Shown: positions 12,352 through 25,019 of the stretch, in pieces
Layout of the letters: the number at the start of each line of letters is the position of its first letter
How positions within the stretch are numbered: position 1 is the first letter of the stretch
Source of the DNA: Exiguobacterium sp. 9-2
GTDB taxonomy: Bacteria; Bacillota; Bacilli; Exiguobacteriales; Exiguobacteriaceae
NCBI RefSeq assembly: GCF_036287235.1
Contig: NZ_CP142850.1
Span: forward strand, 1,691,127 to 1,755,126
DNA length: 64,000 nucleotides
Direction: 5' to 3'
Notes under the pieces: generated by a model
The model's input: the letters and a program-made list of their open reading frames with translations, nothing else
Told to the model about the DNA's origin: nothing
Databases searched by the model: none
Translations under genes and position numbers: made by a program

Positions 12352-13737
12352 ATGAAATTCAGAAAAGAAAAAGTCAATGTCGTTGACATGCAGCAAACCA
12401 AAAAGAGTGTCTACGCGACCGGAATTGGGAATGCGATGGAATGGTTCGATTTTGGTCTTTATTCCTATCTCGCAATCATCATCAGTCAAAACTTCTTTAG
12501 CGCTGTTGAAAATGATGAACTGAAGCTTGTCTTTACTTTTGCGACCTTTGCGATCGCTTTTTTAATGCGACCAATCGGCGGAATCGTCTTTGGACGCATC
12601 GGAGATCGACTTGGACGGAAGGTCGTCTTAACGACGACAATTGTTATGATGGCCGGTTCAACGCTTATCATCGGATTATTACCGACCTACGATCAAATTG
12701 GAATTTGGGCACCCATCCTTTTACTATTAGCCCGCATCTTACAAGGGTTCTCGACTGGCGGAGAATATGCCGGAGCAATGGTCTACATTGCCGAGTCGTC
12801 ACCTGATAACAAACGGAGTGCTCTTGGAAGTGGTCTTGAAATCGGAACACTCGGTGGGTACATTCTTGCCTCATTACTTGCTACAACACTTTTTGTCACT
12901 TTATCAGATGATCAAATGGCATCTTGGGGATGGCGGATTCCATTCATCCTTGGAGCACCACTCGGTTTATTCGGTCTCTATTTACGTCGTCATTTGGATG
13001 AGTCGCCAATCTTCGAAAATGAGATTAATGAAAATACAGAAGAACCCGCGACATTCCGCGAAATCTTACGCGATCATAAGCGTGATATCATCCTTTGTTT
13101 CATTGCTGTCGCGTTCTTCAACATTACGAACTATATGCTCTTGTCCTACATGCCATCATACCTTGATGAAGTCATTGGTATGTCAAGTTCGACAAGTACG
13201 ATTCTCATCACCGGTGTCATGGTGATCATGATTCCACTCGCTTATTTCTTCGGAAAACTAAGTGATAAAAAAGGCAATCGCAATATCGTCCTCTTCGCGT
13301 TAGCAGGACTATCGTTGCTTTCGATCCTGTCGTTCTTCTTGATTGGTCTTAAACCACTCTTGTTCGTCGGAATCGGAATCTTCATCCTCGGATTCTTCTT
13401 GGCGATCTTTGAAGGAACGATGCCTAGTCTCCTACCAAGTATCTTCTATACGGATGTCCGCTACCGGACACTATCCGTGACGTTCAATGTCTCGGTCTCG
13501 ATCTTCGGTGGAACGACGCCACTCGTTTCGACTTGGCTCGTCCATGAGACGCAAAATCCGCTCGCTCCTGCTTTCTATCTAACAGCAGTCAGCGTCATCG
13601 GGTTCGTCACGTTCTTCTTCCTCTTTAAAAATACAGCCGGTAAAGCACTTAAAGGATCGCATCCGACTGTATCGAGTGAAAAAGAAGTCGCGTCGATCGC
13701 AAAAAAACCAGACGATGCCCTTTGGTGGGCAGAATAA
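12352..13737 (+). CDS. MFS metabolite:H+ symporter, ProP-like
   Basis: A 461-residue protein with 12 predicted helices. It begins the conserved core with [20 protein letters not shown], has [18 protein letters not shown] between helices 2 and 3, and [22 protein letters not shown] in helix 4, all hallmarks of the metabolite:H+ symporter subfamily that includes ProP (proline/betaine uptake) and citrate or shikimate permeases. The C-terminal coiled coil that senses osmolarity in E. coli ProP is absent; the tail is short and polar. Own promoter and terminator. Compatible-solute uptake is the likeliest role, not proven. Confidence 0.85.
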
Positions 13738-15962: not shown

Positions 15963-16391
15963 TTAATAAGACGTTCGATCGTCATTTATGACGCTTTGAA
16001 AATGTTCTGTGAACCGATTGATTGATTCTTCTGTATCAAGATTTCCAGAAAACCAGATCTTTTTGTCTTCCGAAAACGTAAGATGCAATGAGTCGTCTAT
16101 TGTAGACTGCACTTTAAGTGTAGCAATCGTATCTGACTTCATTAATGTCTTTTGTGATAGAGTGACCAGTTCATTCGTCAACGTTTCGCGTGTATCTTCT
16201 GACGTCTTTTCCTGGAGAAGATCAACTGTCTTATGAAGCAATACGGCTTTTGAGACTTGCGATAGATTCAACTCTCGAATTTCAAACATGTAGGCGTTCT
16301 CATGTTCATGCTGACGCTGGACGATGAATCGTGGAGAATGCACTAAATGTTGAACGAAGTGAACGAACATTTCGATGGTCATTTCGGACAT
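15963..16391 (-). CDS. Hypothetical cytoplasmic protein, 142 aa
   Basis: No signal peptide or membrane segment. The sequence is mixed helix/strand with a polar, acidic character (QEKTSEDTRETLTNELVTLSQ) and ends in a possible beta sandwich (ATLKVQSTIDDSLHLTFSED). A purine-rich GGGAGGG precedes the ATG by about eight bases, which supports translation. Single gene with its own terminator. I do not recognise the family. Confidence 0.65.
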   Translation of the reverse strand: MSEMTIEMFVHFVQHLVHSPRFIVQRQHEHENAYMFEIRELNLSQVSKAVLLHKTVDLLQEKTSEDTRETLTNELVTLSQKTLMKSDTIATLKVQSTIDDSLHLTFSEDKKIWFSGNLDTEESINRFTEHFQSVINDDRTSY

Positions 16392-16718
16392 ACCGAAACC
16401 CTCCCTTTTGCATGGATCAACGGACGAATGCCTTTAATCCTTTATGTGAATGGACAGTAAGAGTCCTGTATGAAATCAAGCAGGTGAATTGGGAAAAAAA
16501 CCTCCCTTCTGTAAAGTTATACCACAAAAACAAGTACAAAGTGTACATGTTTATGTTTCAAAACTAAGATTCGAATAGCCTCCGAATCTTGTTTATAGTA
16601 ACATAAAAGATACTAGTTTTAATCATAATTAACATACTCATTTGATAAAAAACTATATGACTGAATTATGTACACGGATGAAGAGTCAGAGATCATCTAT
16701 CCCTCTCTGACTCTTACA
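16392..16718. other. Gene-free region with two hairpins
   Basis: Contains a stem AAGATTCG (16566-16573) / CGAATCTT (16582-16589), and the terminator of the Rrf2 gene: AAGAGTCAGAGA (16681-16692) paired with TCTCTGACTCTT (16704-16715). The sequence between is AT-rich with no convincing ORF; it probably also carries the promoter of the gene ending at 15963. Confidence 0.6.
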
Positions 16719-17120
16719 TCAGTCATTCATCGTTGGCGCGATTAAATCTTGTAACGTGTATGCCTGCAGCGCATCCGTAAAGGACGTGAATGCTTGATCG
16801 AACGCTTGTCGTGTGTTTTGCAAACTACCATTTTTATTTGGAACTGTCACATTTTCAAGATAGGATACTTCTTCAAATAAATGAACGATTTCTCCTAACG
16901 TAATCGTTTCTGGGGATTTTGCTAATTTGAAACCTCCATTACGACCTTGTACGGAAATGATGAGACCAAACCTGCTCAATGAATGGACAATCTTCATCAA
17001 ATGATTTTTAGAAATATCATAATGGGTTGCCACTTCTTGAATTTGTACGAGTCGAGTCGGATGCGACGCTGCGAAAATAAGCACACGAATGGCATAGTCC
17101 GTAGAGCGAGTCATCTTCAT
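16719..17120 (-). CDS. Rrf2-family transcriptional regulator without any cysteine
   Basis: A 133-residue protein. The N-terminal winged helix (RSTDYAIRVLIFAASHP, ISKNHLMKIVHSLSRFGLI, QGRNGGFKLA) is clearly NsrR/Rrf2. NsrR and IscR carry three cysteines in the loop before the last helix to hold an iron-sulphur cluster. Here that loop reads SYLENVTVPNKNGSLQNT and the whole protein has no cysteine, so no such cluster can form. The ATG at 17120 has AAGAAGG eight bases upstream; a GTG at 17129 is less well placed. Divergent from the histidine-kinase operon. Ligand unknown. Confidence 0.85.
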   Translation of the reverse strand: MKMTRSTDYAIRVLIFAASHPTRLVQIQEVATHYDISKNHLMKIVHSLSRFGLIISVQGRNGGFKLAKSPETITLGEIVHLFEEVSYLENVTVPNKNGSLQNTRQAFDQAFTSFTDALQAYTLQDLIAPTMND

Positions 17121-17232
17121 CCATTTCACCTTCTTTTTCTTTCCTTTATATAGACATAGTACAGAAGCTCACTCATTTTCACAATCAATAGTATGGCTTA
17201 AAGTGTCGTTCATAGTGATTTTGCACATATGT

Positions 17233-17255: not shown

Positions 17256-17409
17256 GAAGTGTCAAAATCTAGGGATTTCTCGGAAAAAGTAAAATGATAT
17301 TTTAATTCGATGAAGTAAATCATTCAGACTATTCAATGTCTATGATAAGATTCTTTTAAACATGTACGTTTCAAGTTTGTTTATATATTTGTTAGAAAGA
17401 GGTTTAGTC

Positions 17410-19725
17410 ATGAAGTGGCTCTCATCAAGTATGTTCCACCGGTTTTATATTTTATTGTTTTCAAACTTCTTAATTTTTGCAAGCATCGGCGTCTTGACAT
17501 TTTACTTCGCTCAAAAAGAGCTAGAGCAACACCGAACTTCATCACAGAAGATTACATTACAAAAAACGCAAGCTCGCACGCTTTGGAATGAAGCACAACA
17601 AGTCAATCTCCAAGTCCAACAAATCGATTTTAATGATCAAGATGATCTTAAGCAGGTCAATAAAAGATTGAAACGTTTACAAAAAAACGTTGAATCGTTC
17701 AGTCAACGTTATTCAGATCCATCAGACGACCGATTTTCGCATCAACTCGTTCAATTTTCAAGATTTTTGGAACAGGAAGTCACTTTGCAAATACCTACGG
17801 ATAATCAAAAGCTGGTTCAGCAGTCTGACTTCGTCGTTAACGACTACTTTCGAATGATTCATAATGAAGAGAAAAACGCACAGCAGTCGCTACAACAAAG
17901 AACCGCTGAAGTATTACGCTACGCCTTTGGTGTGATGATCATCGCTTTTTGTCTTCTCAGTTACTTGATTTTAAGACTTGTGCGGTCTTTTCGAACAGAT
18001 TTACTCGATCTCGTCGATCAAACAAAACAGCCTGATCGATTGGAACAGAATCATTTTCACAATCGTCACGATGAGATTGGTACACTTGGGCGATCGATGC
18101 AACAAATGACAACGTTGCTCGCATTTGAACACCAGCAAACGCAAGTTGCTAATTTACAACTTCAAGAGTCTTTATACCAACAAAAAACAATCAAGCGACA
18201 ACTTCAATTTCAAAACCAGTTAGCCACTCAAATTTTGCGTCATCAATCTGCTTCAGGGCTTCACACCTGGCTACAAGCAATCGGTAGTCATTTTCGGGCG
18301 GCTCATATCTATTTTTCACCGCAGTCGGAGAGTTTTGAACCTGTCCATATCGCACTATCAGACGAACCAATTTATGACCAAGAACGGCTGGAGTTAGAAG
18401 CGAAGACCGAGCTAGATACATCCATCCATCTAGTAGAGAAGGAGCAATTGACGTTGTGTGCTCTCCCTTTACACAGTTCGTCAAAATTCATCGGGACATT
18501 GACATTACAATTTCATCATCGTTTTACTGAGACTGTCGCACTTCAGAAAACGACTCATTTATTAAATATCGGGTTGATGCGATTGCTTGATGACATCCGT
18601 ATAAAAGAACACCATCAATTGATTCAGCGCATTTTAAATGGTTTACGAGAAGCTATCTTATTCGTCGATGTGACGAATACGAATATCTTTACGAATCGCG
18701 TGTTTCATCAATTATTTCCGAACTGGTCACCTTCTGAAAACCAATCTGAAAACTTAGCATTCGTCATCGAAGCCTTCGAACCGTTGATTCTCGAAACAGA
18801 GGCGTTATATGCATATGTCGAACAAATCAAAGCAGGCTTTGACCACGCATCAGTTATTCCAGCTCAGGATTTTTCAATGCCAGACGATCGTCATTTACGA
18901 CTTTACACAGAATTTTTACCCGAACGTCAAGGTATTCTATTTGTTTTTCGTGAACGCACAGTTGAAGTCAACCATGCTAAAAAGGAGCAAAACTTCATTT
19001 CGGTTTTATCACATGAGCTTCGAACGCCACTTGCATCCATCGAAGGGTTCAGTGAATTAATGTTACACCGGTCGTTATCTCCTTCAAAACAGCGAAAATA
19101 TTTAGAAACCATGCGGAGTGAGACACAGCGACTCAGTCAACTGTTAACCGAATTCCTAGATTATCAGCGACTTAGTCATCAAAAAGAATCCTATCAGTTA
19201 GAATCATTTTGCATCGAACATATGCTCATCGAGTTAACAGAGTGGTTGAACGTTGCGACATCGACGCATCATTTACAAATCCAAACTGACGGTCCTTGCC
19301 TGATTACGGCTGACCAAGAAAAAATCCGGAGGGTCTTATTAAACATCTTAAATAATGCGATAAAATACTCTCCCGTTGATTCAAATATCCAAATCTCGTT
19401 AGCGTGCTGTGAAGCTGAAATCGTCATCACCATTAGCGACGACGGATATGGTATCCCAAAACAAGATCTTCCCTACCTCTTTGATCCGTATTACCGTGTC
19501 GAACAAGCAGACCACCTCCAAGTTCAAGGAACAGGTCTCGGTTTACCGATTTGTAAGGAAATCATCGAAGCGCATGGTGGGAGAATCACCGTTCATTCAG
19601 AAATCGGAAAAGGATCTGACTTTTTTATCCGTTTACCTCGTGATGAAGAGTGGAACACAACCAATAACATGTACAATAACAGTATGAATAATCTACAACT
19701 AGGAAGTGAAGAACGTGGAAGCTGA
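17410..19725 (+). CDS. Membrane sensor histidine kinase, orphan
   Basis: A 771-residue kinase. TM1 is at about residues 10-32, a helical extracytoplasmic sensor of about 135 residues follows (EQHRTSSQKITLQKTQ ...), TM2 is at about 170-193, then a HAMP-like linker. Next come a GAF-like region (about 270-400), a PAS-like region (about 405-520), HisKA with phospho-acceptor H535 in SHELRTP, and HATPase_c with N-box NILNNAIKYSP, G1 DDGYGIP and G2 GTGLGLPI. The ATG at 17410 follows AGAAAGAGG. No response regulator is encoded nearby. The reading frame of the next gene overlaps its end by 11 bases. Base composition is richer in A/T than the housekeeping neighbours. Confidence 0.9.
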   Translation: MKWLSSSMFHRFYILLFSNFLIFASIGVLTFYFAQKELEQHRTSSQKITLQKTQARTLWNEAQQVNLQVQQIDFNDQDDLKQVNKRLKRLQKNVESFSQRYSDPSDDRFSHQLVQFSRFLEQEVTLQIPTDNQKLVQQSDFVVNDYFRMIHNEEKNAQQSLQQRTAEVLRYAFGVMIIAFCLLSYLILRLVRSFRTDLLDLVDQTKQPDRLEQNHFHNRHDEIGTLGRSMQQMTTLLAFEHQQTQVANLQLQESLYQQKTIKRQLQFQNQLATQILRHQSASGLHTWLQAIGSHFRAAHIYFSPQSESFEPVHIALSDEPIYDQERLELEAKTELDTSIHLVEKEQLTLCALPLHSSSKFIGTLTLQFHHRFTETVALQKTTHLLNIGLMRLLDDIRIKEHHQLIQRILNGLREAILFVDVTNTNIFTNRVFHQLFPNWSPSENQSENLAFVIEAFEPLILETEALYAYVEQIKAGFDHASVIPAQDFSMPDDRHLRLYTEFLPERQGILFVFRERTVEVNHAKKEQNFISVLSHELRTPLASIEGFSELMLHRSLSPSKQRKYLETMRSETQRLSQLLTEFLDYQRLSHQKESYQLESFCIEHMLIELTEWLNVATSTHHLQIQTDGPCLITADQEKIRRVLLNILNNAIKYSPVDSNIQISLACCEAEIVITISDDGYGIPKQDLPYLFDPYYRVEQADHLQVQGTGLGLPICKEIIEAHGGRITVHSEIGKGSDFFIRLPRDEEWNTTNNMYNNSMNNLQLGSEERGS

Positions 19726-20020
19726 TTTAAATCAAATCGTTCACTGTTTAAATCAAGATTTTAAACAGCATAAAACTGTCTTCAGTGCAATGGCACTGAA
19801 AGAAACCAACCCCTGCATCGTCTTGATGGAGGATCACCGCAAAAGACGATTGAATGATGCTTTGTATCAATACTCTGATTTCATCGCTGAATTGGAATCA
19901 CTTATTTATCGCTGTTTAATTGATGTCCGGGGAGCCCGTGAATCAGCCTCCCCTTCCGAGATTTTTATCTCAAAAGCCCAGCTCTATTCGCCTTATCATT
20001 ATTTAGTCACTTTTTTATGA
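19715..20020 (+). CDS. Small unknown protein coupled to the histidine kinase
   Basis: A 101-residue protein starting at a GTG eight bases after AGGAAG; another GTG at 19706 lacks a site. No membrane segment. It is mainly helical, with two cysteines in the first 40 residues (IVHCLNQDF, NPCIVLMED) and one in YRCLIDVRG. It overlaps the kinase 3' end, so it is made from the same message. It could be a partner of the kinase, but nothing in the sequence identifies a receiver or HPt domain. Family not recognised. Confidence 0.6.
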   Translation: MEADLNQIVHCLNQDFKQHKTVFSAMALKETNPCIVLMEDHRKRRLNDALYQYSDFIAELESLIYRCLIDVRGARESASPSEIFISKAQLYSPYHYLVTFL

Positions 20021-20032
20021 GAGGAGTCCGCC

Positions 20033-20587
20033 ATGACTGTTCAAGAAAATACAGCATTATTGATCATTGACGTCATTAATAAGATGGATTTTGAAGGAGC
20101 TGAGCAGTTAATGCAACAAACGCTCCCTATCCTCTCACCACTCACAAAATTAAAACAACATTGTAAACGTCAAAATATTCCCGTGATTTACGTTAATGAC
20201 AATTTTGGTCTGTGGCAGGAAAACGTCACTCAAATCATTGATGAGTGCCGCGGGGGTCTTGGGGATGTACTCATCGAAGCACTGCATCCAGAAGAGGATG
20301 ATTACTTCATCATCAAGCCCAAGCACTCAGGTTTTTTCGGTACTCAGCTCGATATTTTATTGAAGCATTTGGATGTCTCGCGTCTTATTATCACCGGGCT
20401 AACGACCGATATGTGTATCTTATTTACAGCAAATGACGCCTATATGCGGGAATATGCCATTCATGTCCCTGCAGACTGTACCGCAGCAGAAACCGCTGTC
20501 GCAAAAGATCATGCCTTAGAAATTCTCAGTTCGACATTATCACTGGATTGCTCCTCGAGTTCATGCTTGATGAATAAGGAGGAATAA
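20033..20587 (+). CDS. Isochorismatase-family cysteine hydrolase
   Basis: A 184-residue cytoplasmic protein with the family triad: D13 in LLIIDVIN, a lysine in FIIKPKHSGF (K95 or K97), and nucleophile C128 in TTDMCILFTANDAY. Members hydrolyse amides such as nicotinamide, N-carbamoyl compounds or ureidoacrylate. The serine/cysteine-rich tail (LDCSSSSCLM) is unusual. GAGGAG precedes the ATG. Third gene of the histidine-kinase operon, 12 bases after the small protein. Substrate not assignable. Confidence 0.85.
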   Translation: MTVQENTALLIIDVINKMDFEGAEQLMQQTLPILSPLTKLKQHCKRQNIPVIYVNDNFGLWQENVTQIIDECRGGLGDVLIEALHPEEDDYFIIKPKHSGFFGTQLDILLKHLDVSRLIITGLTTDMCILFTANDAYMREYAIHVPADCTAAETAVAKDHALEILSSTLSLDCSSSSCLMNKEE

Positions 20588-20589
20588 CC

Positions 20590-21729
20590 ATGCTTCATTA
20601 TTTTTCTGGAACGTATGAATCAGCACGCCAACGTTTCAATGAGACTGCACAGCACATTCTTTCTCAGCATTATCCGAAGCTAACGCATGATTCACTGGAA
20701 CAACAAGCGTCACTCTATTCCGATTGGTGGCACGGCCAGTCCGGTGATAATTCAACATTACTGATCTTAACCAGTGGATTACATGGAATCGAAGGGTACG
20801 CAGGGAGTGCCATGCAGCTTCAGTTTTTATCAGACCATATGAAACAGGTAAATACGGGAGAAGTCGATATTTTGCTGATCCATGGTATTAATGCATATGG
20901 GATGAAACATCATCGAAAAGAAACACAGCATAACCTCAATTTAAATCGAAACGCGATTCACGATTTTTCAAAGGCAGATTTACGCAATCCGGGTTTTGAT
21001 GAGTTGCAATCTTTGTTTATAAAACGGTCAGGTTCAGGACGGCGTCTGGATTATATACCGTTTACACTGCATGTCTTATACGACTTGCTTCGTCTAGGTC
21101 CACACGCTTTTTTAAAGGCTGCGACACTTGGACAATTCAAGCATCCGACCGGATTCTATTATGGCGGACATACGCAAGACGCTTACTTCTCCGATGTGTT
21201 AAGTCGGCTCGTCGATACACTATCTGCTTACCAACATGTTGTGATGCTCGACTGCCATACGGGTTATGGACCAGCGGGTCAAGTCCAACTCGTCATGTCA
21301 TCGGAAGATCCACGACACGCTAAGGAGGTAGAAGCATACACACGTTATCCGATCGTCGATCAACCACGAGATCAACAGTTTTATGCAATCGAAGGAGAAT
21401 GGTTAAATTATCTGTATGAAGAAACAAAAAAGCGGCACATCGGTTTTTTAGGTTTAACCGTAGAATGTGGGACGCTTGGAAAGCACCCTTTTGCCCTACT
21501 CCGAACGTTAAAAGCAACGATTGATGAAAATCGTCTCTTTTTCAATCAAGCAGTTGCCCCTCGACGGATTAGAGAGCGATTCGACACACTTTACATCCCT
21601 AAAAGCAAGCAATGGCGACGGTCCATCTTGAACGAGACATCCTTCATCTTTAACAACATCACTGAGTGGATCAATGATCCTAAAAGTCATTCTTTGATTA
21701 AACGTTCACTTCAACCTATCGAAAAATAA
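20590..21729 (+). CDS. M14-like zinc carboxypeptidase, DUF2817 family
   Basis: A 379-residue protein without a signal peptide. Zinc-ligand candidates are H65 and E68 in SGLHGIEGYAGS and the histidine in MLDCHTGYGPAG; NLNLNRN is the typical M14-like arginine/asparagine region. DUF2817 proteins are predicted metallocarboxypeptidases or amidases of unknown substrate. It starts two bases after the isochorismatase stop with AAGGAGG, so it is the last gene of the kinase operon. The two hydrolases together suggest breakdown of an amide- or peptide-linked compound, which is inference. Confidence 0.8.
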   Translation: MLHYFSGTYESARQRFNETAQHILSQHYPKLTHDSLEQQASLYSDWWHGQSGDNSTLLILTSGLHGIEGYAGSAMQLQFLSDHMKQVNTGEVDILLIHGINAYGMKHHRKETQHNLNLNRNAIHDFSKADLRNPGFDELQSLFIKRSGSGRRLDYIPFTLHVLYDLLRLGPHAFLKAATLGQFKHPTGFYYGGHTQDAYFSDVLSRLVDTLSAYQHVVMLDCHTGYGPAGQVQLVMSSEDPRHAKEVEAYTRYPIVDQPRDQQFYAIEGEWLNYLYEETKKRHIGFLGLTVECGTLGKHPFALLRTLKATIDENRLFFNQAVAPRRIRERFDTLYIPKSKQWRRSILNETSFIFNNITEWINDPKSHSLIKRSLQPIEK

Positions 21730-21739
21730 GGTAAAACAG

Positions 21740-21769
21740 GTTTGAAAGAAACTGATTAAGGTATATAAC
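21740..21769 (+). promoter_or_regulatory. SigB-like promoter of the manganese catalase operon
   Basis: GTTTGA (21740-21745), 13-base spacer, AGGTAT (21759-21764), against the sigma-B consensus GTTTAA-N12-15-GGGTAT. A sigma-A reading also exists: TTGAAA (21742-21747), 16 bases, TATAAC (21764-21769). Control of a manganese catalase by the general stress factor has precedent in Bacillus. Confidence 0.55.
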
Positions 21770-21812
21770 ATGTGTAACTCGCATATGTTTAAAACTTAAA
21801 GGGGGTCTTTTC

Positions 21813-22694
21813 ATGTTTCGCCATCAAAAAGAATTACAATTCGAAGTCAAGGTTGATCGACCCGATCCAAAGCTTGCTCGGGCCGTGCAAGAGGTACTCG
21901 GTGGACAATTCGGTGAGATGACGGTCATGATGCAATATCTTTTCCAAGGCTTCAATTGCCGTGGTGAAGAAAAGTACAAGGATATGCTGATGGATATCGG
22001 GACGGAAGAAATCGGGCACGTTGAAATGCTGTGTTCCCTCATTTCTCAATTGCTCGACGGGGCGTCACCGGATGATCAGGCAGAAGCTGCCAAAGATCCA
22101 GCGACGGCAGCAATTCTCGGGGGTATGAATCCACAGCATCTTCTTGTCAGCGGTCTCGGTGGACTGCCATCGAACGCCAACGGCATTCCGTGGAACGGAT
22201 CTTATATCGTCGCGAGCGGTAACTTATTGGCAGACATGCGTTCGAATCTACATGCTGAATCACAAGGTCGTCTTCAGGTCGCTCGCCTCTATCATATGAC
22301 GACGGATGAAGGCGTTCGCGCTACCTTCCGTAAGATGCTCGCTCGCGACCGGTATCATCAGTATCAATGGATGGCTGCGATCGAAGAACTGGAGACGAAA
22401 AACGGAGTTGTCGTGCCTGCTACTTTCGCACCGGAAGATGAGATGGAAGCGCAACCGCATGCTTATGAGTTCTGGGACCTATCGGAAGGCACAGCTTCAA
22501 AAGAAGGTCGCTGGGCTCAAGGGGAAGCGCAGGATGGAACCGGTGAATTCGTTCATCTAGAAAATCCTGCACCGCAAGGAAATATTCCGAACATGAAGGT
22601 ACCGGCACACAAACTTCACCACGACCTATCAGAAAAAACAGGAATGCAAAACGTCAAAGATACTGTCAAACGTATGTTACATGATAAGGAGTGA
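21813..22694 (+). CDS. Manganese catalase
   Basis: A 293-residue ferritin-fold enzyme with the full dinuclear manganese ligand set: E35 in GGQFGEMTV, E66 and H69 in TEEIGHVEM, E149 in LHAESQGR and H182 in DRYHQYQW. It disproportionates hydrogen peroxide in the cytoplasm without heme. Length and ligands match active enzymes. ATG with AAAGGGGG upstream. It heads a unit with two CotF-like genes (stop and next start nearly touch). A similar manganese-catalase fold (CotJC) belongs to spore coats in Bacillus. Likely stress-induced from the SigB-like promoter. Confidence 0.93.
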   Translation: MFRHQKELQFEVKVDRPDPKLARAVQEVLGGQFGEMTVMMQYLFQGFNCRGEEKYKDMLMDIGTEEIGHVEMLCSLISQLLDGASPDDQAEAAKDPATAAILGGMNPQHLLVSGLGGLPSNANGIPWNGSYIVASGNLLADMRSNLHAESQGRLQVARLYHMTTDEGVRATFRKMLARDRYHQYQWMAAIEELETKNGVVVPATFAPEDEMEAQPHAYEFWDLSEGTASKEGRWAQGEAQDGTGEFVHLENPAPQGNIPNMKVPAHKLHHDLSEKTGMQNVKDTVKRMLHDKE

Positions 22695-22699
22695 GATCG

Positions 22700-22918
22700 A
22701 TGGCTAAATCACCACTTGCAATCCATGAAACACTCGAAATCCATGAAATCATGACGATGAAACAAGCCTGTCTCGTTAAAGCTGTTGCCGTACGTTCTTT
22801 CGTCAAAGATGAGACGCTTGAAAAATTGATTGCTCAAGACATCAAAGATAGCGAACAAGCATTAAACGATTTACAAAAGCTATTGGCAGATCATGAAGGA
22901 GGCGGTTTGCATGAATGA
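22700..22918 (+). CDS. CotF-like spore-coat-family protein, short form
   Basis: A 72-residue all-helical protein (LAIHETLEIHEIMTMKQACLVKAV ... IAQDIKDSEQALNDLQKLL) resembling the first half of the Coat_F domain. The ATG at 22700 has AAGGAG nine bases upstream, better than the GTG at 22691. It overlaps the next gene by eight bases. Coat_F proteins form ferritin-like helical bundles; outside sporulation their role is unknown. It is cotranscribed with the manganese catalase. Confidence 0.75.
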   Translation: MAKSPLAIHETLEIHEIMTMKQACLVKAVAVRSFVKDETLEKLIAQDIKDSEQALNDLQKLLADHEGGGLHE

Positions 22919-23204
22919 AGCTCTTCAATCCATTAGCCGTCCCAGTAAAAAACGCGACGAGTTGATTGCGACAGACTTCTTGATCAGCAGCAAATCACTT
23001 GTCCGCGCTTATGCTGTTGCAATTACGGAAACGGCTTCTCCTGACGTTCGAAAAGTCTTGACTGAACAGCTGAACAAAGCCATTCAGACTCACGCAGCAA
23101 TCGCCGGATACATGATCGATCATGAGATGTATCACGCGCATGACTTGAAAAAACAATTAAAACACGATCAAGAAAAACTAGAAGTCGCTAAAGGCTTACT
23201 ATGA
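22911..23204 (+). CDS. CotF-like spore-coat-family protein
   Basis: A 97-residue helical protein with Coat_F features: RDELIATDFLISSKSLVRAYAVAITETASPDVRKVL and a histidine-rich HEMYHAHDLKKQ near the end. ATG preceded by GGAGG. Together with the preceding 72-residue protein it may form a split two-part bundle. No sporulation genes are visible in this window. Ends at a terminator. Confidence 0.78.
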   Translation: MNEALQSISRPSKKRDELIATDFLISSKSLVRAYAVAITETASPDVRKVLTEQLNKAIQTHAAIAGYMIDHEMYHAHDLKKQLKHDQEKLEVAKGLL

Positions 23205-23209
23205 CGTTC

Positions 23210-23247
23210 CCCCTTCCCTTCTGATTTTGAAGTGGAAGGGGTTTTCT
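23210..23247 (+). terminator. Terminator of the manganese catalase unit
   Basis: CCCCTTCC-CTTC (23210-23221) pairs with GAAG-T-GGAAGGGG (23229-23241), followed by TTTTCTTTC. Confidence 0.8.
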
Positions 23248-23278
23248 TTCAGAATTCGTGTAAGGAGCGATCAGTCTC

Positions 23279-24391
23279 ATGATTGACATCAATCATATTC
23301 AAATCAAACAAAGTGGAGAAACTGTTTGTCTCACCTGGGAAGGGACAAGTAACGTCCGTCTCTTATTGAATGGTAGACCGTGTTTCATTCAGAACTCGAA
23401 TAGCTATCAAACGGAGACACTTCCTTTATTTGAGCCTTTGTCATTCGAACTGATCGATTCAGATTCGAAGACACGTATCGTCACCGCTCTTGTTTCAAGT
23501 ACAGATGATTTGTTCTGGAACCGAAAAATGACTGTCCTGATCCAACAAGATCATGCTGTCCGACTGTTGTGGGGTGAAATCCCAGAGGTATCGCATTATA
23601 CGGTATTTCAAGATGGGCATCGATTAGGTCAAACTGCGTCACCTGAATGGCAAGGAACGATTAACCCTGAACAATTTACACGTTTCGAAATCCGGGTGCT
23701 CCGTCCTATTTCCAGAAAATCGATGCCGTTCGCACGGATGATTGAGACGTTCGCCCGCGTTACGAATCAGATAAAACAGGAACAAGACCGGGAACGAGAA
23801 TTCGAACAGTTCGTGCTCTATTTTTCTTTGTACCCGCTATCCGCTTCACATACGAAGGTTTCTTCTTACCGATTGCGTGTACTGACGTTCATTGCTCCTC
23901 CGATTCTCATGAACCCGAATCCGTTTTCTCCGCATCGTTATTTCGAAGGCGATGCGCGACAATATTCACCTTTTTCAAAAGAGTATCGTACCTTTACAGA
24001 AGTCCTGACATTTGATGGTGAAACTACTCATCAACTATCAAAACAAGCAAACCCTACCCGATCTTTTGATGCTCGTCATCAGTTATATCGAGAAGATGTA
24101 GCGTCGACTCAGCGGGTCTATTTATCAGATCAATCACCAACACGATATACGCTCCACCACTCTGTCGGCAATCCGCTCGTCGTCTCACCTAATATCGACT
24201 ACGAAATCAAGGTAGCGCATCATTCAAATCTTTGGCGTATCGCAGGAACACATCTCCAATCACCGCACCATGAAGTATATCTGGATGAAGGAGACGATTG
24301 TTTTGAAACAATCCACCAAGCCCATGATTTAGGTTTAAGTTTCCTCGGCAACCCGTTGCCAAGTTGTCACTGGTTGCATGTGACCAACTAA
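23279..24391 (+). CDS. Hypothetical protein, 370 aa (possible DUF3238-like C-terminal part)
   Basis: No signal peptide or membrane helix. The first 180 residues look like two beta-rich, fibronectin-III-like repeats (VCLTWEGTSNVRLLLNG; VRLLWGEIPEVSHYTVFQDG). The C-terminal part begins LRVLTFIAPPILMNPNPF and contains RYFEGDARQYSPFSKEYRTFTEVL, which I think resembles DUF3238 proteins of Bacillus; this is recollection, not a search. The start has AAGGAG about 11 bases upstream. Single gene between two terminators. Function unknown. Confidence 0.7.
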   Translation: MIDINHIQIKQSGETVCLTWEGTSNVRLLLNGRPCFIQNSNSYQTETLPLFEPLSFELIDSDSKTRIVTALVSSTDDLFWNRKMTVLIQQDHAVRLLWGEIPEVSHYTVFQDGHRLGQTASPEWQGTINPEQFTRFEIRVLRPISRKSMPFARMIETFARVTNQIKQEQDREREFEQFVLYFSLYPLSASHTKVSSYRLRVLTFIAPPILMNPNPFSPHRYFEGDARQYSPFSKEYRTFTEVLTFDGETTHQLSKQANPTRSFDARHQLYREDVASTQRVYLSDQSPTRYTLHHSVGNPLVVSPNIDYEIKVAHHSNLWRIAGTHLQSPHHEVYLDEGDDCFETIHQAHDLGLSFLGNPLPSCHWLHVTN

Positions 24392-24401
24392 TGAACAGAA
24401 G

Positions 24402-24429
24402 AAAACCGCGACCGATTCGTCGCGGTTTT
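24402..24429. terminator. Bidirectional terminator
   Basis: AAAACCGCGAC (24402-24412) pairs with GTCGCGGTTTT (24419-24429) between convergent genes. Confidence 0.85.
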
Positions 24430-24435
24430 TCATAT

Positions 24436-24825
24436 TTAGTCGTGAAATCGAGCACGTGTCTCCGGAGATGGCAGTGCACACTGCTGCTTTTGTCCAAACC
24501 AACGATGACGATTGTTTGCAACGAAATCATAGACGCGATCTCGGAGTGAACGTGGAACAATGCGAAGCACTCTCAACAGACGCCATCCACCTCCTAAATG
24601 ACCGGCAATCCGTAACGCAGCATCCGATTTGATATACGGTACACCCCGGTCAATTACGACGACACTGTCAATCGTTTCCGGGAGATGGTGGCGCTTTACG
24701 AGTTCTTGCCCTGTCTCCCCTTGTAACGATGCAAAATCATGGTACCCCTGGTCTCGTTTTAAGATGAACTGGACGCTCGCGTCACAGAGATTGCATTCTC
24801 CATCGAATAAGACGATTGCTTTCAT
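24436..24825 (-). CDS. DCC-family thiol-disulfide oxidoreductase-like protein (DUF393, YuxK-like)
   Basis: A 129-residue protein starting MKAIVLFDGECNLCDASVQFIL; the DGxCxxC motif (C12, C15) gives the DCC family its name and predicts a thioredoxin-like redox fold. Later conserved parts are DSVVVIDRG, DAALRIAGHLGG and RDRVYDFVANNRHRWFG. The ATG at 24825 follows AAGGG; a longer frame to 24906 lacks family similarity. Electron partner unknown. Single gene. Confidence 0.88.
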   Translation of the reverse strand: MKAIVLFDGECNLCDASVQFILKRDQGYHDFASLQGETGQELVKRHHLPETIDSVVVIDRGVPYIKSDAALRIAGHLGGGWRLLRVLRIVPRSLRDRVYDFVANNRHRWFGQKQQCALPSPETRARFHD

Positions 24826-25019
24826 GATTGATTCACCCTTCCCTAACTGTTTAACGAATGATTTTGTACACTTTTCCTTTACCACACTTTGGGTATAAAC
24901 ATGCAATTATTTAGTATGTTAAATCATGATAACGCTTTCTCTTCTTCTCTTCATTCCGTTATACTGATTCTGTAAACATTTGATTTTTACAAATCCATCT
25001 ACTTAAAAGGAGCATATAT

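Follow-up and report, generated by a model that had tools for sequence, protein, structure and literature searches.

To what does a sensor histidine kinase signal, and under which conditions, when no response regulator is encoded beside it? We address this question for a kinase of Exiguobacterium sp. 9-2, encoded in a 64,000-nucleotide stretch (hereafter the window; positions 1691127-1755126 of a 3.06-Mb single-contig genome), in which an original prediction, made from the letters alone, had placed a four-gene system at 17410-21729: the kinase, a 101-residue small protein, an isochorismatase-like hydrolase and a DUF2817 protein. The open reading frames (ORFs) found there agree with that description in size and order. 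On balance, we favour reading the locus as an optional redox or stress sensory cassette of one Exiguobacterium lineage, which would be switched by a regulator of the Rrf2 family and would feed a single-domain receiver shared with other kinases. Gene content, presence and absence of the cassette, operator conservation, kinase class and conservation of the receiver are observed directly, and the functional reading built on them is conditional throughout. Each part belongs to a known kind, whereas the way they are arranged, the predicted sharing of a receiver and the genus-specific helper protein are new as far as our searches go.

An optional cassette

Nine of the 19 genus genomes compared (G000, G061, G015, G002, G004, G005, G009, G003 and G017) have the same order, in which an Rrf2 gene is followed divergently by the genes for the kinase, the small protein and the isochorismatase-like hydrolase, then in some cases DUF2817, and then a manganese catalase. 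A search for the proposed four-gene order therefore recovers its first three members in these nine genomes, whereas DUF2817 is intact in just three of them (G000, G015 and G002), broken or shortened in two (two pieces of 77 and 296 amino acids (aa) in G061; cut down to 323 aa in G017) and missing from the other four (G004, G005, G009 and G003). The split gene of G061, a genome of the same species, lies at L113:11168-12307 and reflects either decay or a sequencing error. The catalase gene follows in all nine cassette genomes, and the genes for p75 and CoatF in seven, neither being present in the automatic ORF call of G009 and G003. The boundary originally drawn after DUF2817 has to be moved: the unit continues into the manganese catalase operon, so that the block includes a catalase that had been overlooked, and DUF2817 is not a constant member. 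Across the genus, the catalase is found in 11 of the 19 genomes, and all ten genomes with an orthologue of the window isochorismatase (at least 55% identity) also have it. In one of these ten, G007, the two genes are on different contigs; in the eleventh catalase genome, G006, the catalase is on a 5.6-kb contig together with an Rrf2 gene and a homologue of the small protein.

In three relatives (G001, G012 and G016) the block is missing although its flanks are kept, the MBL gene being 92-93% identical. The alignment ends at 17307 (17150 in G016) and restarts at 24391 (24399 in G012), and in G001 the two junction points are 34 nucleotides (nt) apart (8116 and 8150). All three retain the Rrf2 gene (81-82% identical) beside the gene for a DCC1-like protein, and are also without p142 (15966-16731 unaligned). 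The block thus behaves as a cassette that was either gained or lost. E. sibiricum-type genomes carry these genes in an unchanged order at another chromosomal place, where a further Rrf2-p142 pair follows the DCC1-like gene, such that two such pairs flank the cassette (L061:4432-5573 and 12384-13426). The parts of the locus are as follows.

15963..16391, minus strand: p142, 142 aa, no family; the strongest operator of the window lies upstream
16529..16551, unstranded: candidate Rrf2 operator of p142, matching 17/20 positions of AACATGTATAnnnTATACATGTT
16719..17129, minus strand: Rrf2-family regulator, cysteine-free; NsrR is the best of the named Rrf2-type models, below its cut-off
17308..24390, unstranded: the cassette, about 7.1 kb; absent with tight junctions in three relatives (G001, G012 and G016)
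17359..17381, unstranded: candidate kinase operator, 13/20 here and 13-15/20 in 8/8 genomes tested
17410..19725, plus strand: orphan sensor histidine kinase, 771 aa; two hydrophobic segments, predicted extracellular helical bundle, GAF-like, PAS-like, HisKA and HATPase_c regions
19715..20020, plus strand: small protein, 101 aa, of an Exiguobacterium-only family; predicted alpha-beta-beta-alpha-beta-beta fold
20033..20587, plus strand: isochorismatase-like cysteine hydrolase; nearest solved relative 3eef (related to N-carbamoylsarcosine amidase)
20590..21729, plus strand: DUF2817 protein, optional member; Pfam domain, putatively M14-like by motif
21767..21789, unstranded: candidate operator of the manganese catalase, 15/20 here and 15-18/20 in 10/11 genomes, 46-50 nt before the start
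21813..22694, plus strand: manganese catalase
22691..22918, plus strand: p75, 75 aa, no family; overlaps the catalase stop
22893..23204, plus strand: Coat F domain protein (CoatF); a terminator-like hairpin is next, at 23210-23241
23279..24391, plus strand: 370-aa protein, last cassette gene; weak DUF3238 match (19.9 bits, cut-off 21.1)
24401-24430: terminator-like hairpin just past the 370-aa gene
24436..24828, minus strand: flanking gene, DCC1-like thiol-disulfide oxidoreductase; a site resembling the operator, at 24898, occurs also in cassette-free relatives

The tight spacing noted originally holds, since the kinase and small-protein genes overlap and the next two gaps are 12 and 2 nt, as does the AT-rich composition: GC content is 0.405 for the kinase, 0.392 for the small protein, 0.418 for the isochorismatase and 0.431 for DUF2817, compared with 0.455 for the window. 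The ratio of nonsynonymous to synonymous substitutions for these four genes is 0.05-0.11 against close relatives, and all four are therefore maintained proteins under purifying selection. A terminator between DUF2817 and the catalase was considered and rejected, the hairpin found there being mostly the operator palindrome.

A candidate local repressor and its putative operators

The divergent gene next to the kinase encodes a protein with an Rrf2 winged-helix domain (Pfam, E 1.4e-30; 106.6 bits against a cut-off of 30), and neither this protein nor the nine copies aligned with it contain a cysteine, both as anticipated. What had been missed is that it is a probable regulator of the block rather than a random neighbour. 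The NsrR model gives it 92.4 of the 182 bits that this model demands. It shares with NsrR and other Rrf2 regulators the domain and, bar one symmetric pair, the operator; in contrast to NsrR it has no cysteine, which leaves it without the iron-sulfur cluster of NsrR and without a thiol switch, and it therefore cannot sense in the manner of the cluster-bearing protein.

Comparison of the regions upstream of the catalase and kinase genes yielded the 23-bp palindrome AACATGTATAnnnTATACATGTT. As the consensus was drawn from them, these two sites are not independent evidence for it; the site of p142 took no part in its making. The two best matches of the window are at 16529 (17/20, 138 nt before p142) and 21767 (15/20, 46 nt before the catalase). 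Simulated windows (60 runs) contained a mean of 0.18 sites scoring at least 15 and none scoring at least 17, and none of the 55 other window ORFs has a site above 13 in the 300 nt that precede it, five of them reaching that score. The catalase site is kept at 15-18/20, 46-50 nt from the gene, in ten of 11 genomes (12 in G007), and that of p142 at 17/20 in all six genomes of the same clade (12-16 in six copies of the other clade). The two p142 genes of G009 are each preceded by a site of this kind, scoring 16 and 15 of 20. The kinase site scores 13-15/20 in 8/8 genomes tested, which span two deep clades, and the site upstream of the DCC1-like gene 12-15/20, including 14 in the three cassette-free genomes. 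Elsewhere in this genome, a second orphan kinase (2717 kb) has a 16/20 site at -140 (L133:2136), with 15/20 and 13/20 upstream of its orthologues in G007 and G016, respectively; the upstream regions of seven further kinases of the class described below score 10-13/20.

The core of the palindrome, cATGTAT-N5-ATACATg, differs solely in the outer base pair from the published NsrR motif gATGyAT-N5-ATrCATc (PMC1274295), and a 23-bp site is likewise described for Streptomyces NsrR (PMC9338935). A site of this type therefore suits a member of the Rrf2 family, most naturally the adjacent protein, which is likely a local repressor. Our searches found no literature joining Rrf2 with manganese catalase. 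In G006, a 16/20 operator-like site (L065:1431) lies 60 nt before a gene for a flavin adenine dinucleotide-dependent oxidoreductase beside Rrf2, a possible further member of the regulon.

Absence with tight junctions and low GC content, together with the fast divergence of the kinase and its weak operator in this strain, would also suit a passenger cassette, that is, unrelated genes gained or lost as one block with the catalase alone under Rrf2-type control. We consider this unlikely, since the kinase operator is kept in two deep clades and G016 and G006 each show another arrangement in which an Rrf2-type gene lies close to that of the small protein. Furthermore, no transfer RNA gene was found at 8000-34000 of the window, by which an insertion point of that kind is rejected, and no mobile-element family was matched by those window proteins that were scanned for families.

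An orphan kinase and a candidate shared receiver

As originally described, the 771-residue protein combines a helical sensor with GAF-like and PAS-like regions, as a structure model shows. It matches HisKA (65 bits) and HATPase_c (103 bits) above the Pfam cut-offs and carries the phospho-His in an HELRTPL H-box, and is thus a HisKA-type sensor histidine kinase. The model, usable for domain layout only (mean predicted local distance difference test score (pLDDT) 76, predicted template-modelling score 0.39), has a long four-helix N-terminal region, a GAF-like region at about 282-368, a PAS-like region at about 415-515, and the DHp and catalytic domains; hydrophobic segments are at about 11-34 and 165-195, with the helical bundle between them. 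The nearest of the 24 receivers of the genome is encoded about 214.7 kb away. Having no response regulator alongside, the kinase does not form an ordinary two-component system and is a true orphan, as had been claimed. Between the two clades in which it occurs, DHp is 70% identical, the sensor 28% and the GAF-like region 23%, so that its output face is conserved while the input side changes. Replacement by an unrelated kinase in the E. sibiricum-type clade (36% identity) was considered and rejected, both forms falling in one clade with support 100/100.

The window kinase groups with eight others of this genome in a clade with support 98/99, in a tree that contains long-branched outsiders flagged by the tree tool. 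Measured from the HATPase domain, the distance to the closest receiver is 9 to 215 kb for eight members of this clade, which are orphans, whereas the remaining, ninth member is 2.5 kb from its receiver domain; by comparison, 16 of the 17 other listed kinases have a receiver within 2.2 kb, the exception being the one at 868 kb. This tally covers 26 of the 34 HATPase_c matches, the other eight having been left out as presumed non-kinases or other types that were not checked individually. The gene of the ninth member overlaps that of a 125-aa CheY-like receiver, which is encoded about 950 kb from the window kinase, is 94-100% identical in 18/18 genus genomes searched and 71-73% in 5/5 genomes of the sister genus, and adjoins the same kinase in all 23. 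At the five contact positions altered in rewired HK853 (A268, A271, T275, V294 and D297, according to PDB titles), the window kinase and the receiver-linked kinase both read S, G, L, T and S in an alignment inspected by eye, and S-G-L at +8, +11 and +15 from the phospho-His is found in 9/9 class members and 0/10 other kinases. These shared contact residues and the conserved DHp support one receiver common to the nine kinases. The window kinase is thus likely one of a nine-member class with a shared receiver, a relationship that the original prediction did not contain.

The closest solved kinase core is that of HK853-RR468 of Thermotoga maritima (PDB 3dge and 4jas; E 7e-42 to 2e-43), and the receiver proposed as the hub has RR468, also a single-domain receiver, as one of its closest relatives of solved structure. 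HK853 and RR468, however, form a pair of one kinase and one receiver, whereas we propose a single receiver for nine kinases, and the gene of the window kinase lacks a receiver gene beside it. In Caulobacter, several kinases of a stress pathway are described as converging on the single-domain receiver MrrA (PMC5964349); that hub belongs to another phylum, and receiver sharing is only predicted here. A receiver-SpoIIE phosphatase is encoded at L169:1482-5025, together with a stand-alone HPt protein and, by a tentative reading, a CheV-like protein, and this group may act downstream of the proposed hub.

Spo0F typically receives its phosphate from orphan kinases, and in the Bacillus relay from KinA-E to Spo0F many orphan kinases feed one receiver. 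That the window kinase is such a sporulation-type kinase in a non-sporulating genus, phosphorylating Spo0F and through it Spo0B and Spo0A, strikes us as rather improbable: Spo0A is present, a receiver lies at the canonical Spo0F place between pyrG and fba, and a Spo0B-like protein is encoded after rpmA, which are the usual Bacillus neighbourhoods of these genes, but the better candidate for a Spo0F kinase is a separate orphan at 868 kb (L138:3484-5328), whose H-box, HEIRNPLT, is KinA/KinB-like, whereas the window kinase differs from KinA-E in H-box class, with HELRTPL, and the ninth member of its class is linked to a receiver other than the separately present Spo0F. The genes in question are at L131:3924-4328 (Spo0F-like, about 2776 kb), L168:1271-1993 (Spo0A, about 936 kb) and L194:1153-1635 (Spo0B-like, about 2157 kb). 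Exiguobacterium is listed among Spo0A-positive non-spore-formers in PMC3533761.

Proposed function and its weighing

In the reading that we favour, the cysteine-free, NsrR-like Rrf2 protein would, judging from the conserved sites, repress several transcription units through the 23-bp palindrome: p142, the kinase-small protein-isochorismatase(-DUF2817) unit, manganese catalase-p75-CoatF, the DCC1-like gene and, elsewhere, the second orphan kinase. With a manganese catalase and a thiol-disulfide oxidoreductase under the same proposed control, a redox or peroxide-linked condition is suggested as the signal context. The membrane kinase would sense an external cue via its fast-changing helical domain and, as its sequence class suggests, pass phosphate to the shared CheY-like receiver that eight sister kinases would also use. 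As guesses, the 101-aa protein may be a cytoplasmic partner tuning the kinase, and the substrate of the isochorismatase-like hydrolase may be a small molecule connected with that stress.

Several points weigh against this reading. The kinase operator scores 13/20 in this strain, as do five of the 55 unrelated upstream regions, and its support lies in a conserved place and in better matches among relatives rather than in the score here. There is no site before the Rrf2 gene itself in cassette-free relatives (10-11/20), and the adjacent protein is no more than a candidate binder of the palindrome among the Rrf2 proteins that this genome encodes. The contact residues may be common to the class through duplication without a common receiver, and the window kinase is among its more diverged members (E for Y at +10). 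The genes for Spo0F, Spo0B and Spo0A exist, which makes Spo0F a rival receiver, and the small protein has no recognisable fold relative by Foldseek or VIA-align.

A wider many-to-one network, in which nine fast-sensor kinases would feed a near-invariant receiver, possibly followed by HPt and the receiver-SpoIIE phosphatase, and in which Rrf2 would plug in optional kinases, a genus-specific helper and the manganese catalase, is conceivable though doubtful. We found no literature combining Exiguobacterium, two-component and Rrf2, or histidine kinase, isochorismatase and manganese catalase. The orphan kinase now yields testable predictions as to its receiver and as to a repressor and the sites through which it would act, and sister species with and without the cassette offer a natural comparison. 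If the hub is true, Bacilli also use a design of many kinases to one receiver outside the sporulation pathway, and new sensors are added via a cassette carrying its own regulator sites.

The hydrolases

The isochorismatase domain is matched with E 3.5e-32 (112 bits). An Asp-Lys-Cys triad is the mark of isochorismatase-like cysteine hydrolases, and its D, K and C are found in LLI(I/V)D, KPKHSGF and TTDMC in 8/8 aligned copies; no NCBIfam equivalog reaches its cut-off for this protein. The DUF2817 domain is matched with E 2.6e-59 (201.9 bits), and the sequence contains HGIE, CHTG and VECGT, by which the protein is a candidate M14-like peptidase. Sequence comparison gave it no relative of solved structure at E below 0.1, and a literature search for DUF2817 returned one unrelated paper. 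The original idea of an operon in which sensing by the kinase leads to hydrolysis of a peptide or amide-linked compound by both enzymes fits the gene order with tiny gaps and the amide or peptide substrates of both families (for DUF2817 if it is M14-like) but is very improbable, nothing having been found in its support, DUF2817 being intact in so few cassette genomes, the constant downstream partner being the catalase, and no transporter or peptide gene being seen in the cassette.

The small protein

The small protein has 101 aa from a GTG start or 104 aa from 19706, and matched no Pfam or NCBIfam family. A wide hunt through genome contigs placed 14/14 confirmed loci of its family in Exiguobacterium; members occur in 17 of 61 relatives, all 17 within this genus, and the named records with relatives are all Exiguobacterium (Leaf196, indicum, sibiricum and others). 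The confidence of its model is high (pLDDT 89.9), but Foldseek returned no match at E <= 0.001 from the PDB or the viral libraries, and the best VIA-align Z is 7.1 (YajQ), followed by H-NOX and TRAPP rows at 5-6; we make no fold claim, because these values sit in the range that the tool calls common. A relationship to MpsC (DUF2294), which has a similar order of helices and strands, was rejected on an hhalign probability of 0.3%. MpsC itself is present in 6/7 sister-genus genomes and in 0/18 genomes of this genus. A paralogue of the small protein is encoded near glycolysis genes, as read in G000, G002 and G017. In G016, the copy of the cassette type has an Rrf2 gene on one side and, on the other, the orthologue of the kinase at 2717 kb, and the small protein, this Rrf2 type and this kinase class therefore co-occur in more than one arrangement.

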